A program made the translations under genes and the position numbers. A DNA stretch of 64,000 nt from an archaeon (lineage in GTDB: Archaea > Micrarchaeota > Micrarchaeia > Anstonellales > Bilamarchaeaceae), in assembly GCA_020053355.1 (NCBI GenBank), contig JAGVNI010000006.1, forward strand, positions 1-64,000. The letters are read 5' to 3'. The notes under the pieces are model-generated. The model was not told where the DNA came from, searched no databases, and saw only the letters and a list, made by a program, of their open reading frames with translations. This document shows, piece after piece, positions 7,067 to 62,057 of this stretch (its first letter is position 1; every line of letters begins with the position of its first letter).

Positions 7067-7498
7067 ATGAAATTGGACCACATACATATTACGGTAAACG
7101 CGAAGATCGATCCATCTTTTAAGGCGCTGCCGAAGGACGATGCGAAGCGTTTTGTGGACAGGCTGCTTAAGGAAATACACATGAAGCCCCTAGGCCCTAT
7201 AAACTGGGCCGACGCCGAGGACCTTGATTTCCCCGGGCAAAGCTTCGTGCAGATGATTACCACCAGCCACTGCTCGCTCCACTTTTTCAACCACAAGGAC
7301 GGCACGAACGAAATCTACTTCGACCTCTATTCGTGCAAGCCGTTCGACTCGGAGAAGGTTGTCGAGCTTCTGGATGAGAAGTTTTGCCTCAAAGAGTGGC
7401 ACGGCGTCCTGTACAACCGGGCAAGCGACGGCAAGCCACAGGTAAGGATGATCGGCACCGCGGCCAAGGAGTTCATGGTGGCGAAAGTCCGGAACTGA
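7067..7498 (+). CDS. S-adenosylmethionine decarboxylase (SpeD)-like protein
   Basis: 143 aa; MITTSHCSLHFFN...EIYFDLYSCKPFDSEKVVELLDEKF resembles SpeD ESHxxIHTWPE...DxFTCG...DPxKA. Confidence 0.6.
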   Translation: MKLDHIHITVNAKIDPSFKALPKDDAKRFVDRLLKEIHMKPLGPINWADAEDLDFPGQSFVQMITTSHCSLHFFNHKDGTNEIYFDLYSCKPFDSEKVVELLDEKFCLKEWHGVLYNRASDGKPQVRMIGTAAKEFMVAKVRN

Positions 7499-7584
7499 AT
7501 CGCCCGTTTATTGTTTTTTTTTCATTTCCCCCTTGCGCAAGCCAGGCGCAACGGTTTAAATCTGCGCGCAAGGAAAGGAAGGGC

Positions 7585-8040
7585 ATGAAGCTCCTTGTGG
7601 TTTCGTTGGGGATTTTGGCCCTGCTTGCCGGCTCTGTTTTCGCCGGATGCGCGGCAGAGGCGTACAGCAAGACCTGCAATTCGTGCCAGTTCGATGAAAA
7701 CGGCAAGGTCGACTCCTCCTGCAAGAGCGGCTACCAGTCATCCGGCACATCGTGCGTCAGCATGAGCTACCCGATAATGTCGGCGAAATATGCCGATGGG
7801 AAATGCCCGGCAGTCGATTCGTGCGCGGATGAGCTGCGTTCATGCACGGCCCAGTATTCCACCGGCAACGACTCGGAGGACTGCCGGGAAGGCTCCACCG
7901 CGATTTGCTATGCGGCGGCCGACCAATGCGTGAAAAGCGCGGCGGTGAAGTGCGGGGAGATAGAGAGCCCGTGCCCGGGTTCTTCGGCAGGGTTCATCCT
8001 GCTTTTTGCCGGCCTTGCGTTTGTGAAACTGAAGGGCTAG
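7585..8040 (+). CDS. secreted or anchored Cys-rich protein
   Basis: 151 aa from ATG 7585; signal-like N-terminus MKLLVVSLGILALLAGSVFAGC, about 13 Cys, hydrophobic C-terminus AGFILLFAGLAFVKLKG. Confidence 0.65.
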   Translation: MKLLVVSLGILALLAGSVFAGCAAEAYSKTCNSCQFDENGKVDSSCKSGYQSSGTSCVSMSYPIMSAKYADGKCPAVDSCADELRSCTAQYSTGNDSEDCREGSTAICYAAADQCVKSAAVKCGEIESPCPGSSAGFILLFAGLAFVKLKG

Positions 8041-12146: not shown

Positions 12147-13730
12147 ATGGTCGTTGTTGAATTCGCATACGGGGAAATGAAGAAGCTGGTGAACCTCCCG
12201 AAGGAGAAGATGGTCGCGCTGCTCAGCGAGCTTGGCGCACCTTCTGAATACGAGCCGGAAGTCGACAAGATAATCACCGAGTTGACGCCTAACCGGCCGG
12301 ACTGGTATTCCATGGAAGGGCTCGCCCGCGCCCTGAAAGCGTACCTGGGCAAGGAACTCCCGGAGTACAAGGCCAAAAAATCGGATTACCGGGTTATCGT
12401 AGACCCCTCGGTCTCGGAAGTGAGGCCATACACCGTTTGCGCAGTGGTGAAGGGGCTGGAATTTTCAGACGAGAGGGTGCGCGACGCCGTGCTGCTGCAG
12501 GAGAAGCTGCTTGCCACGCTGGGACGCAGGGTGAAGAAGTTCGGCCTTGGCCTCTACCCGCTTCATGCAATCCGCTTCCCGGTCAGGTATACGACGATGA
12601 AGCCATCGGAGATAAGGTACGTGCCTCTTGGCCACGACAAAGAGATGGGCGCCGATGAAATTCTTGAAAACCATAAGAAAGGCCAGCAGTACGGGCACTT
12701 GCTGAAAGGCCACAAGAGATACCCGGTTTTCACCGATGCGGCGGGCAAGATTATGGCGCTCATCCCGATTGTGAATTCCGCAGAAACCGGAAAGGTCGAC
12801 GTGGATACGAAGGACATATTCATCGAGGTCTCGGGCATGGAGATGCAATCATGCAAGGCTGCCCTCAACATCCTGGTATGCACATTCGCGGACATGGGCG
12901 GCCAGGTTTACGAAGTGGAAATGGATTATGGAAAAGAGAGGTTCCGGTCGCCGGATCTGAGCCCAAAAAGCATGGCCCTGGACATAAAGAAGGTGAATGG
13001 GATATTAGGCCTTTCGCTCGGTGAAAAGGAGGTCGCCGGATACCTCGGAAGGATGGGATACGGATACAGTAGGGGGAAGGTATCCATAGCGCCTTACCGG
13101 GCCGATGTCCTCGGCATCGTCGACATTGTCGAGGATGTCGCCATCGCATACGGTTATAATAATTTCAAGCCGACGATTCCGGATTTCTTCTCCCCAGGCA
13201 AGACGATAACGGAGTATGACGAGGCCGACCGCATAATGCGGGGGATGGGATTCCTCGAGGCGAAGACATTCATCCTCACCAATAAGGAACGGCTGGAGCA
13301 GATCGGCGCGGAGAAAGGAGTCGTGGAGATATCCAATCCGGGCACGGCCGATTATACGGTCGTCCGCCCCACCCTGGTGCTGGACATGCTAGAGACATTC
13401 CAGATAAACAAGATGAAGGGGCTCCCGCAAAGGTTCTATGAGATAGGCATCGTCCGTGACGGGAAGAAAAGCTCGAAACGGCTCGTCTTTGGCATAATGG
13501 ACAAGAAAATCGAATTCGCGCATGCCAGGGGGGTCCTCCAGGCCCTCGCATTCGAGAAAGGGTTCGAATTCACGCTGGAAAAGAAGCCCCAGAAGGCCTT
13601 TGACCCGGAAGTTTCCTGCATGGTCGTATCTGGGGGCAAGGAGATAGGCGTTTTTGGGAAGATTAGTGGAAGCCTGCTCGATAAGCTCGGCCTGGGTTTC
13701 GAGGTATATATCTGCGAATTGGCCCTATAG
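12147..13730 (+). CDS. pheT: phenylalanyl-tRNA synthetase beta subunit
   Basis: 527 aa; ELTPNRPDWYSMEGLARAL, DIVEDVAIAYGYNNFKPTIP, archaeal-type PheT. Confidence 0.96.
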   Translation: MVVVEFAYGEMKKLVNLPKEKMVALLSELGAPSEYEPEVDKIITELTPNRPDWYSMEGLARALKAYLGKELPEYKAKKSDYRVIVDPSVSEVRPYTVCAVVKGLEFSDERVRDAVLLQEKLLATLGRRVKKFGLGLYPLHAIRFPVRYTTMKPSEIRYVPLGHDKEMGADEILENHKKGQQYGHLLKGHKRYPVFTDAAGKIMALIPIVNSAETGKVDVDTKDIFIEVSGMEMQSCKAALNILVCTFADMGGQVYEVEMDYGKERFRSPDLSPKSMALDIKKVNGILGLSLGEKEVAGYLGRMGYGYSRGKVSIAPYRADVLGIVDIVEDVAIAYGYNNFKPTIPDFFSPGKTITEYDEADRIMRGMGFLEAKTFILTNKERLEQIGAEKGVVEISNPGTADYTVVRPTLVLDMLETFQINKMKGLPQRFYEIGIVRDGKKSSKRLVFGIMDKKIEFAHARGVLQALAFEKGFEFTLEKKPQKAFDPEVSCMVVSGGKEIGVFGKISGSLLDKLGLGFEVYICELAL

Positions 13731-13782
13731 GGAGACCCCACACTTCCACTATTAGGCTACGGCTTCCAGTTTGGCCCAGGCA

Positions 13783-14025
13783 TCAGGATTCAAGCAGCTC
13801 GATGGACTCGATATTGGTTTTATAGACGATGACCGCCCTTCCGAAGCGCTTGAAGAATTTATCCATCATCCTTTCCATCCTGGTTTCCACAGCGAATGCG
13901 GATTTCGTCTTCCAAAGCTCTTTTTTCAGCGGAAGCCGGTTCAGGTGATAGTAGAAGAGGCGTTTTGTCCGGTTGAACGATTTCTTGTTCGTCGCTTTCA
14001 GGTCGTATATATACAAGACGAGCAT
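13783..14025 (-). CDS. small Cas2-like (ferredoxin-fold) protein, function unknown
   Basis: 80 aa MLVLYIYDLKATNKKSFNRTKRLFYYHLNRL...KSAFAVETRMERMMDKFFKRFGRAVIVYKTNIESIELL; apparent beta-alpha-beta-alpha-beta pattern; no CRISPR nearby. Confidence 0.5.
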   Translation of the reverse strand: MLVLYIYDLKATNKKSFNRTKRLFYYHLNRLPLKKELWKTKSAFAVETRMERMMDKFFKRFGRAVIVYKTNIESIELLES

Positions 14026-58546: not shown

Positions 58547-58846
58547 TCATTTCCCTTCAGGCTTAGCTCCAGCTACCGCCCCCGGAGCCAAAATATCGTA
58601 TGCCCTGGTCAGGATGTCTGATACTGGCGTGGAAATCCCATCCCCCAGCATATCCAGACGTTCGAATGAGCCTCGGGATTCCTTGTATCCCTCAGTCGCC
58701 GTTTCCGTGGAAATCCCGAAAAAACGTAGATGATTCCGGGCATCATCCGCCGGCTTCCTTTTCCTCGGCGAGAACGGCCTTCCTGCCTTCAGCGCATCGC
58801 GGATTTCAGTCCGCCTCCTCTCGTCGAACAGCGTCCGGAGCATCAT
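58547..58846 (-). CDS. array member 6: LFDExRR-motif protein
   Basis: N-terminus MMLRTLFDERRRTEIRDALKAGRPFSPRKRKP; 4-nt overlap with upstream gene. Confidence 0.7.
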   Translation of the reverse strand: MMLRTLFDERRRTEIRDALKAGRPFSPRKRKPADDARNHLRFFGISTETATEGYKESRGSFERLDMLGDGISTPVSDILTRAYDILAPGAVAGAKPEGK

Positions 58847-59208
58847 CCCCTGCCACCCCGGTTGTTCCTTGGAATGAATAAATCGTCGCCAACACCGGCA
58901 ATCCCAGGAGGCTTGGAAGATATCGCGATATCGTCATATGAAACCGGGCGGCCTTTCGGGTAATCACCATACAGGAATTTCACCAAATCCTCGAATGTCG
59001 CAGATTCTACCGGCTTTCCCATCGCTTTTTGGAACGCCTCCTTGCCGTCTTCGCCTATTGTTGAAATCAAGCCCTGGATCGGATTCCCAGGCGCAGAGGG
59101 CTCCAGGGACGGGACCCTGCGCCTGAATGCGATCGGATTCCCGGACCTGATGGCGTGGCGTATATCGTCCCGCCTCTTCTCATCGAAAAGCGCGCGCAGG
59201 ATGCCCAT
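58843..59208 (-). CDS. array member 5: LFDExRR-motif protein
   Basis: MGILRALFDEKRRDDIRHAIRSGNPIAFRRRVP; start placed at 59208. Confidence 0.8.
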   Translation of the reverse strand: MGILRALFDEKRRDDIRHAIRSGNPIAFRRRVPSLEPSAPGNPIQGLISTIGEDGKEAFQKAMGKPVESATFEDLVKFLYGDYPKGRPVSYDDIAISSKPPGIAGVGDDLFIPRNNRGGRG

Positions 59209-59209
59209 A

Positions 59210-59569
59210 CTAATCACTCCCTTCCCTGCCTTCAACACTAATCGTGCAGATATTCCCGGTAGATATTTTCGATGGCGTAATCGTGATTTTCTTGCCGTCC
59301 GGCAGAGTGATTCTGCTCTCCTTTTCCATGGGGTATCCTCCGCGCACGACGCTTTCCCCTCCCTGTGTGATGTCGATGATGGCGCACCCGTCCGGCCGAA
59401 TCCCATCGAACCTGAAATTCAATCCGCCTGAGTGCATCGGGCCGTTGTTCTCCCCCATAATCATCTCTGCCCGGGGATTCTTTCTCCTGAATGGGAGCGG
59501 CTCGCCCTTCTCTATTGCATGGCGTAAATCCCGCCTCCTTCCCTCATCAAAAAGCGTCTGTAGTGCCAA
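59210..59569 (-). CDS. array member 4: LFDExRR-motif protein, beta-rich C-terminus
   Basis: MALQTLFDEGRRRDLRHAIEKGEPLPFRRKNP. Confidence 0.8.
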   Translation of the reverse strand: MALQTLFDEGRRRDLRHAIEKGEPLPFRRKNPRAEMIMGENNGPMHSGGLNFRFDGIRPDGCAIIDITQGGESVVRGGYPMEKESRITLPDGKKITITPSKISTGNICTISVEGREGSD

Positions 59570-59570
59570 A

Positions 59571-59984
59571 TCAATCCCTCGATTCCTGCCTGACCGTGAC
59601 GGTCACGACATCCTGCCCCGACACGTCGCGGGCCTCTTTCGCTTCCAAAGTGAAATATGCGGGGCTGGTCGCATCCGGATTGAAGTCTTTCATTTCTTTT
59701 CGCCCGATTTTCACATGCACCTTTCTCGCCTTGCCATCATTCCCGTTCCCCTTTTCGACCATGACAATCGCGTTTTTTCCATCTACGCCAATATACCTGA
59801 AACCGAACCCCCCGATTTTAACCTGCAGCCCAAGCGTAAGTTGGTCGCGCCTGAGCGCCCGGCGTTCATCCATCGAATCAGGGGCCGGCTTCCTGTGCTT
59901 AATTAGCGCGATGACATCCCCTTTTTTGAGGGCTTCCCGTACCCTATCCCTCCTGTTTTTATCGAAAAGCGCTTGGACTGCCAT
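59571..59984 (-). CDS. array member 3: LFDExRR-motif protein, beta-rich C-terminus
   Basis: MAVQALFDKNRRDRVREALKKGDVIALIKHRKP. Confidence 0.8.
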   Translation of the reverse strand: MAVQALFDKNRRDRVREALKKGDVIALIKHRKPAPDSMDERRALRRDQLTLGLQVKIGGFGFRYIGVDGKNAIVMVEKGNGNDGKARKVHVKIGRKEMKDFNPDATSPAYFTLEAKEARDVSGQDVVTVTVRQESRD

Positions 59985-60398
59985 TTAATCGCTCTCCGCG
60001 TACATCGATTCCACCACGATGGCGGCCTGCATCTGGGATTTTTCGCAAACCTGCGGCGCAATCCTCACCCTCGTCCCGTCCGCCGGATAATCGATTACCG
60101 TTTCCCTGCCAATCGGCAGCGTTTTCGTCTCTGTCAGGCCATCCCCGCACTTGATGCCCATTGCAATGTTGTTTCCTGCCACAGGCCCGTTGTATATGAA
60201 ATAAAATCCGCCTATCTTGTAGCTTTCACCGATGGAAAGCCTGCCATCGTATGCGCCCTTGGCGGCTTGGGAAGAACTCAACTCCGGTTCCGTGCTGTCT
60301 ATTTTCGGCTCCCTGCTCCGGAAAACGATGGGCTTGCCGCTATGAACGGCTCCCCGGATTTCCTGCCTCCTTGTCTCATCGAACAGTGCGCGAATCAT
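59985..60398 (-). CDS. array member 2: LFDExRR-motif protein, beta-rich C-terminus
   Basis: MIRALFDETRRQEIRGAVHSGKPIVFRSREP. Confidence 0.8.
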   Translation of the reverse strand: MIRALFDETRRQEIRGAVHSGKPIVFRSREPKIDSTEPELSSSQAAKGAYDGRLSIGESYKIGGFYFIYNGPVAGNNIAMGIKCGDGLTETKTLPIGRETVIDYPADGTRVRIAPQVCEKSQMQAAIVVESMYAESD

Positions 60399-60862
60399 GG
60401 GCCCACCTTGCCTTTGGTTCCGAGCGTTGCGCGAATGGCGTCTTCTGCTTGCACCCGTTCTAGAAGTTGAAATATTAGCGCATATAGCTCTAATTGGGCG
60501 AGCATCATCTCCTCAGCCGGGGTGTATGTTACACTGATGCCATGCTTCGCATCAAAGAATTTATACCCGACAGCGACTTCCAGATGCTCGATTTCTTCGC
60601 TTCCATGCTCTGCGGCAATCTCTCCCATTTTTTTCTCGTTATATTCCGTTGCACGGTCAAGCCGGTCCTTTGTTGCATCCCCCGATTCACGGATGCTTCG
60701 TATGAACGCGCGAATCTCGCAAGCGGCAGCGTTTTCGTTCCGGGCAGGTTCTGACAACCCCGGATTTTTCATGCGCTGGAATGGCAGGGGCTCGCCCTTC
60801 TCTAACGCCTTCTGGATATCGGTTCTCCTGCCTTTGTCGAATAGTGTCTTGAGTGTCATCAC
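60395..60862 (-). CDS. array member 1: LFDExRR-motif protein, helical C-terminus
   Basis: MTLKTLFDKGRRTDIQKALEKGEPLPFQRMKNP; GTG 60862 or ATG 60859 start. Confidence 0.8.
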   Translation of the reverse strand: MMTLKTLFDKGRRTDIQKALEKGEPLPFQRMKNPGLSEPARNENAAACEIRAFIRSIRESGDATKDRLDRATEYNEKKMGEIAAEHGSEEIEHLEVAVGYKFFDAKHGISVTYTPAEEMMLAQLELYALIFQLLERVQAEDAIRATLGTKGKVGP

Positions 60863-60896: not shown

Positions 60897-60904
60897 TTTT
60901 AAAA
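60897..60904 (-). promoter_or_regulatory. candidate TATA box for six-gene array
   Basis: TTTTAAAA about 35-42 bp upstream of the first array gene's start codon. Confidence 0.5.
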
Positions 60905-60956: not shown

Positions 60957-62057
60957 TTAAGTGGTGATTCTGTCCACCATCTTCTTCTTTTCGGCGTCCT
61001 TGACTTCCATGGCGATGCGCCTGCCGAAGGAAACGCTTTCGCGGAAAAGGTAGCCTGAATACGGCGTGAAGCGGGTTCCTGGGGAGCCGGGCATCCTAAG
61101 CGAGATGTCGAAGCACGTGAACTTCTCCCCGTTATCCTCGATGAACGCGCCCTGGAGGGCGAATGGGCCGATGATGCCGTCCTTGTACTCCTTTTGCACT
61201 GCGCGGACGAACTTCTCGCCGATTTCAAAGCACTGGTCAAGGAGCGATTCGCGCATTGTGCAGGCGATATGCCCGACTTCTATGGTCGAAGGCTGCTGCA
61301 TCTTCAGGAGTTCCAGTTGCACATCCGCAGGCATCCGGAGATAGCCGTCGATATTCGTCTGCCTCCTCGTATCGAGCCCCAGAAGCTCCAGTTCCTCATG
61401 GACAGGAGAATAGAAAAAGTTCAGGTTGAAGTGCGAGCCCACGATATATTCCTCGACTGTGGCTTTCGAGAGCTGCTCCTCAGTAGTCTTTCCGCTTTTC
61501 ACAAGGGCTTCCGAGCGCTCTTTGTATTCCTCATAGCTCCGTGCCAGGAAGAACGCCCGTTCATACGTCCTTTTCGCCTCGCTCACTTTCACGATGCAGA
61601 GCCTGTCGATGTCTTTCGGGGACTTGAACTTCTTAGGTGTGCGCATCCCGGCCTTCTCCATAAGGTAATACTGGTTCTTCGGCGCATCGCGCTCCTCGGC
61701 TCGGAGCAGGTACTTGTTCCCAAAGACCGGAATCGTGAACTGCTTCTCGATTGCCTCGTAGCCCACATACACGGCGAACGAGCGGTTCGGGACGAAGATG
61801 GCGTTGCGCTTGTTGAGGAAATCGATGTTCTGAGGCAGGACCATCTCGCTGAACTTGTTGACAAGAAGAAGCTCGTCCACCACGCCGATTTCTTTGGTTA
61901 CGCCTCCGGTCTCCCGTTTCCGGGTCTTGTACGGCCCCAGATACGTCTTCTCCCTGCCCCTCTGCGCAACTACAAGAGTATTGAAGCCCTCCTGCTTCGC
62001 GCCTTCGCTGACATCCAAAGCCGAGTGGCTACCTAATGTAGAAATAGTGTGCTTCAT
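60957..62057 (-). CDS. purP: PurP (formate-dependent FAICAR synthetase)
   Basis: 366 aa; STLGSHSALDVSEGAKQEGFNTLVVAQRGREKTY, GSHFNLNFFYSPVHEELELLGLDTRRQTNIDGYLRMP. Confidence 0.95.
   Translation of the reverse strand: MKHTISTLGSHSALDVSEGAKQEGFNTLVVAQRGREKTYLGPYKTRKRETGGVTKEIGVVDELLLVNKFSEMVLPQNIDFLNKRNAIFVPNRSFAVYVGYEAIEKQFTIPVFGNKYLLRAEERDAPKNQYYLMEKAGMRTPKKFKSPKDIDRLCIVKVSEAKRTYERAFFLARSYEEYKERSEALVKSGKTTEEQLSKATVEEYIVGSHFNLNFFYSPVHEELELLGLDTRRQTNIDGYLRMPADVQLELLKMQQPSTIEVGHIACTMRESLLDQCFEIGEKFVRAVQKEYKDGIIGPFALQGAFIEDNGEKFTCFDISLRMPGSPGTRFTPYSGYLFRESVSFGRRIAMEVKDAEKKKMVDRITT

Follow-up and report, generated by a model that had tools for sequence, protein, structure and literature searches.

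The window, that is, the whole stretch of 64,000 nucleotides of DNA analysed (contig C18 of a small-genome archaeon of the DPANN group), carried on the minus strand, between positions 58547 and 60859, six contiguous genes, each opening with a module of about 32 amino acids (the tag; Table 1). All six minus-strand open reading frames of the original prediction were found as claimed, and its description of the junctions was borne out when each junction was read: ATGA overlaps of 4 nt joined genes 1 and 2 and genes 5 and 6, with a 0-bp gap between genes 2 and 3 and 1-bp gaps between genes 3 and 4 and genes 4 and 5. Gene 1 had a GTG at 60862 and an ATG at 60859, and the N-terminus MTLKTLFD previously quoted for it arises from the ATG alone. 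The upstream neighbour adjoined the tagged array in the congener (G015) too, and served as a synteny anchor. The data were MAGs with open reading frames called mechanically, and structure models covered two of the six window proteins (genes 1 and 3), with low confidence.

Table 1. Coordinates of the tagged genes and of the features upstream of them in the window.
Feature	Coordinates	Strand	Protein	Tag	Remarks
Gene 1	60395..60859	-	154 aa	60761-60859	Tag E 1.7e-18 against the profile of its own set
Gene 2	59985..60398	-	137 aa	60306-60398	Beta-rich body, kin to genes 3 and 4
Gene 3	59571..59984	-	137 aa	59886-59984	
Gene 4	59210..59569	-	119 aa	59474-59569	TTG start
Gene 5	58843..59208	-	121 aa	59110-59208	
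Gene 6	58547..58846	-	99 aa	58751-58846	
TTTTAAAA, TATA-like, putative promoter element	60897..60904	-			38-45 nt upstream of the first ATG; seen in sequence
DUF1246/DUF1297 gene, upstream neighbour	60957..62057	-			Not part of the system

Over the first 33 amino acids all 15 gene pairs exceeded shuffled sequences (z 7.6-15), whereas over the bodies (residue 35 on) z was about 0 except for the pairs 2-3 (7.7), 2-4 (3.2), 3-4 (3.3) and, marginally, 1-5 (1.9). The boundary between a constant and a variable part is therefore real, and the shared N-terminus with divergent C-termini was upheld; full-length homology of all six was not seen. The three body pairs above shuffles make genes 2 to 4 a related trio of weak kinship, which, together with the low-confidence model of gene 3, agrees with the earlier view of these bodies as related and beta-rich. 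In that model the tag formed a helix, followed by a low-confidence linker and a 7-strand body (residues 54-134). Of the three genes claimed to be helical (1, 5 and 6), gene 1 was modelled, and its body was predicted, at low confidence, to be helical in a poor model (AF2, pLDDT 59).

Gene 3 had a homolog in the congener in synteny (33% identity, E 2e-10), the body of gene 5 was homologous to the congener gene L056:6892-7239 (46%, E 5e-15), and the body of gene 6 bore a weak likeness to the last gene of the congener array (L056:6600). The body of gene 4 was distantly similar to those of genes 2 and 3 and to the first gene of the congener array (E 1e-5). Searches of the window genes against Pfam, NCBIfam and PADLOC gave no accepted family, gene 3 had a single weak and unnamed PHROGs match (phrog_19224, E 0.004), and fold searches with the low-confidence models of genes 1 and 3 matched nothing.

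A short terminal peptide on diverse cargo recalls the cargo-loading peptides of encapsulins, and the body of gene 1 weakly matched EncFtn-like (encapsulin-ferritin) models (E 0.04-0.09). That match found no support in PDB sequences, none of the other bodies is an enzyme of a kind known to be loaded into encapsulins, and the shell family PF04454 had no match in the 90%-complete genome, control genomes being positive; the tag is tied instead to MoxR and vWA genes, as described below. With no shell gene, the encapsulin reading was rejected as scarcely credible, and the encapsulation role first suggested for the tag was not borne out.

Eight columns were invariant across the six window tags (L6, F7, D8, R11, R12, A18, G22 and P33). 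The module consensus was M..x.LFDxxR[RK]xx[IVL]Rx[AG][ILV]xxG, to which the window array adds xPx.F[RK]RxxP; across all 33 tags one R was invariant, and L-F-D, I/V/L, A/G and G were nearly so. None of the profile libraries (Pfam, NCBIfam, PADLOC, PHROGs) names the tag, and the earlier statement that it belongs to no recognised family therefore holds as far as tested. At positions with the same amino acid, the codon was identical in 47% of cases in the window tags (36% expected by random choice) and in 44% in the tags of contig C15 of the same genome (35% expected). Synonymous codons were thus near random, which argues that the tag has been kept by protein-level selection and not by recent copying; judged by codon choice, the tags of the window and of C15 are old and maintained as protein. 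An artefact of local duplication was rejected because the bodies are unrelated and the codons near-saturated.

The profile of the six tags retrieved further tagged genes on four more contigs of this genome (C15, C3, C2 and C13) and on C17 and C25 of G015. With the profile of 33 tags, about 22 tagged genes were found in the window genome (23 matches) and 11 in G015, and none of the phylum's remaining 301 genomes gave a match at E <= 1e-4; of the 303 genomes, the two with strong tag matches are also the two in which the close MoxR-vWA core is encoded. In the window genome the tag sat on unrelated bodies across five contigs. The array on C17 of G015 was syntenic with the window array, with matching flanking genes on both sides and homologous bodies in similar order, one or two of them replaced. 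In both species this array was unlinked to the MoxR-vWA core.

The largest tag cluster of the window genome, on C15 (L052:6314-16445), surrounded that core: tagged genes lay in one minus-strand run with a MoxR-type AAA+ ATPase (533 aa) and a vWA protein of 673 aa. They flanked the vWA gene on both sides and directly followed the MoxR gene on C15 and in the congener, where C25 repeated the layout with a core 77% (vWA) and 76% (MoxR) identical and with a different tagged set. Among the five C15 tagged genes scanned outside a hypervariable family, three passed the Pfam ankyrin cut-off, one fell just below it and one had no match. The C13 tagged gene was also ankyrin, and other ankyrin calls on C15, C3 and C2 were made by eye from sequence. 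One C15 tagged gene was almost tag only (74 aa).

The hypervariable family comprised three tagged paralogs on C15, 65-70% identical overall (L052:6314-7084, 7081-7860 and 13182-13964), in which 22% of the columns were invariant over the last ~60 amino acids vs 77% over the preceding 100. These tails resembled the variable region of a retroelement target, yet the genome had no reverse transcriptase. A comparison by hhalign gave no support for homology between the paralogs and retroelement targets from other phyla, and this idea was rejected.

The vWA protein carried a MIDAS-type DxSGSM motif, and over 17 DPANN vWA proteins (A9 set) its metal site was invariant (D463, S465, M468, T541 and D565). 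The same 17 kept a zinc-peptidase-like HExxH...GCP...NAxxD pattern, with one variant in which HG replaced HE (L117). The Walker motif of MoxR was GSRGSGKT. No match to the vWA family was found in Pfam or among PDB sequences. Six-frame tag searches of the genome found no tag in the MoxR or vWA proteins, and a homotypic adaptor is therefore excluded at this sensitivity.

The conserved HExxH...NAxxD pattern of the vWA family, together with a basic and proline-containing linker modelled at low confidence right behind the tag helix, would suit a tag that signals processing or destruction of its protein, in which MoxR would drive the HExxH site to cleave or unfold clients at the tag or linker and thereby free or remove the body. 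This reading was considered unlikely; the vWA protein matches no known peptidase family, L117 has HG where the others have HE, and no cleavage motif is defined.

The only other MoxR relative of the window genome lay on C13 with its own vWA and no tag set, and its locus and those of G009 and G017 had one or zero intervening genes and likewise no tag set. The C13 operon (L097:9240-13915), like L095:3114-7706, had the order MoxR, a 355-aa gene and vWA without a tag set, an arrangement shared with the congener G009. Relatives in other genera had a simpler triad. In another Micrarchaeota genus (G035) the order was MoxR, a 1241-aa ankyrin-repeat protein (L093:4604-8329) and vWA, and this protein starts with MPLIDPKARQEILEAF, which is tag-like by eye and not significant. 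In G045 the gene after vWA (L086:1969-2976) was built of a repeated unit of ~57 aa, NLKQTxLWDxVKxQWN...

A scan of GTDB with five vWA sequences gave 20 loci, all from DPANN lineages (Micrarchaeota, Nano-, Woese- or Pacearchaeota) or unnamed archaea. Nearly all of those with enough flank had the order MoxR, tagged genes, vWA, tagged genes, with an N-terminus specific to the locus: MKIPDNIFGKDREAELKKYLEES in L104 (2 genes), IIGDK..S..DP.LA...N in L109 (7 genes) and NVLGQRTRK.NID..LA..N in L114 (6 genes). Over the first 28 amino acids, tag identity averaged 0.67 within loci vs 0.27 between them, and the body was less conserved than the tag in every locus compared. Shared N-terminal sequence around MoxR-vWA recurred in the more distant L138, L139, L140 and L141, for whose choice the vWA profile was the sole criterion; by eye, L138 and L139 had ankyrin-like bodies. 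In L140 (G097:C26), several consecutive genes near MoxR-vWA shared a motif, DPI[LV]x[KR]Yxx[ED]G[IL][LF]GxxPGxVK, that lay inward of the N-terminus and not at it.

Two loci of one MAG, L104 and L107, had MoxR proteins 83% identical, vWA proteins 83% identical and a best body pair 63% identical; their tags were 39% identical between the loci and 93% and 100% within them. As related MoxR-vWA-retroelement loci with different tags in a single MAG, they form a natural specificity pair.

The 5' ends of the L104 tagged genes were 97% identical in DNA, as would be expected if the tag had arisen simply from duplicated genes and conversion of their 5' ends and had no docking role. The tags of the window and C15, however, retain L-F-D..R..I..A...G although near-saturated at synonymous sites, and unrelated bodies on five contigs keep them. 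This reading is already disfavoured and appears very improbable.

Whether tags are related across loci depended on the group compared. In single-sequence profile searches of this tag against those of other loci, shuffles did as well. In profile-profile comparisons, the Micrarchaeota tag scored 18.1 against the ankyrin-linked tag of L138 and L140 (a different family in the class; LIDxxKKxxVLxRIR) and 16.6 against the tag group of L103-L108, and in neither case did any of 300 column shuffles reach the score. Against the group of L102, L109, L112 and L114 (A13), 69 of 300 shuffles reached the score, which was thus indistinguishable from chance. A common origin is suggested by these profiles for part of the tags, in two of the three tag groups and not for all; overall, homology between tags from different phyla could not be demonstrated.

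Five loci (L102, L104, L105, L107 and L108) had a reverse transcriptase and, close to it, a template repeat that matched the 3' ends of tagged genes; in each pair all mismatches, 8/8 to 22/22, lay at adenines of the template. In L103, 13 of the 14 mismatches of the template and variable pair did so, and the L104 reverse transcriptase matched RVT_1 (2e-20). Adenine-specific mismatches and a nearby reverse transcriptase identify the tagged genes of those six loci as retroelement targets, several of them encoding hypermutated proteins of sensor-like type. The window genome had no RVT_1 match and C15 no visible adenine-biased repeat pair, so that a diversity-generating retroelement was rejected for this genome.

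Most DPANN archaea depend on hosts, and ankyrin repeats are frequent among effectors. Combined with the retroelement diversification of binders in relatives, this would agree with a role of the tag in export: ankyrin proteins and further effectors would leave the cell for a host or a rival, and the MoxR-vWA pair would serve the exporter. Inspection of the operons that were read, which was no systematic search, showed no secretion gene, and MoxR-vWA pairs of known function work intracellularly (e.g., NorQD; PMC13036017). Export was therefore held to be improbable.

The reading preferred here, at slightly better than an even chance, is that the module is an address marking the clients of one MoxR AAA+-vWA machine, encoded on C15. 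In the NorQ-NorD pair, a finger of the vWA protein reaches into the pore of MoxR, and the substrate has been suggested to be held at the metal site of the vWA protein (PMC13036017); this precedent, the conserved vWA motifs and the helix and linker modelled for gene 3 led to the tag being read as a motor address. The tag would consist of a short helical address and a basic, proline-containing linker, and would be recognised by the vWA protein or the MoxR ring, after which the motor would move the attached body into place, remodel it or switch it on. The bodies so handled would be, at C15, ankyrin repeats or members of the family with hypervariable tails and, in the window array, small domains of beta-rich or helical type. 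Parallel systems would also be kept apart by the tag, which would for that reason be uniform within a system and divergent between systems. Counting against this reading are the unlinked position of the window array in both species, the MoxR-vWA loci that have no tag set, the absence of the tag from MoxR and vWA and the limited homology among the tags of different phyla. From the genomic context we infer physical docking of the tag, its binding by one of these subunits and motor action on the client, as well as use of the C15 core by the window array as an unlinked client set. The original idea of a docking tag on modular clients thus gained support from context, in that tagged genes surround MoxR-vWA and tags vary between loci and are uniform within them.

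No description of a tag/MoxR-vWA system was found in the open-licence literature, and the address reading was compared with several known systems. In the MoxR-vWA conflict systems of Kaur et al. (2020), a core protein and the effectors both bear small effector-associated domains (PMC7159879). The present loci resemble their ternary systems in the MoxR and vWA core, which shared one operon on C15 and on C25 of the congener and was absent from the window array itself, and in a small, non-enzymatic module carried by many variable partners, both in the operon and at other sites of the genome; copies were more alike within a locus, and some partners were retroelement-diversified. They differ in that the module is an N-terminal peptide of ~32 aa of which no copy is fused to a core component, in that the clients are ankyrin, hypervariable-tailed or without a match and have no recognised enzymatic or signalling domains, and in that the vWA core family has no Pfam match. 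Pfam and PADLOC scans of MoxR, vWA and several tagged genes showed no third core component (VMAP, iSTAND or FtsH). Given this result and the absence of the module from the core, membership of the ternary systems fails for the features examined, though the logic is alike.

With the NorQ/NorD chaperones (PMC13036017, PMC9976466) the core shares a MoxR AAA+ protein and a vWA partner, metal site and Walker motif being present, but NorQD serves one enzyme, whereas one core is linked here to many tag-sharing clients. As in reports on DPANN diversity-generating retroelements (PMC4372165, PMC8144416, PMC10907252), related loci had a reverse transcriptase, a template repeat and variable regions in tagged genes. 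One of these papers reported no recognisable domain in the targets of archaeal clade 5 (PMC8144416), and another no genes of conflict systems with clade 5F (PMC10907252); unlike in those reports, the targets found here sit inside MoxR-vWA operons and have shared N-termini, and their reverse transcriptases may or may not belong to clade 5F.

Taken more broadly, these loci may form a DPANN family with one address for each core, a possibility that was put at somewhat below an even chance. A MoxR motor and a vWA, zinc-peptidase-like subunit would serve changeable sensor or effector bodies, the N-terminal address would be re-coded upon duplication of the core, and the bodies would be hypermutated by retroelements in many lineages. 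The window array would be an unlinked satellite in which new small domains take the place of ankyrin or lectin-like bodies.

The address reading would offer a possible role for the N-termini of archaeal retroelement targets, in which earlier surveys had recognised no domain, and would connect DPANN retroelements with MoxR-vWA machines, a previous paper having seen no association with genes of conflict systems. How AAA+/vWA motors choose their clients would thereby become testable, and the L104 and L107 tag pairs, encoded in one genome, would provide a ready-made test of specificity.
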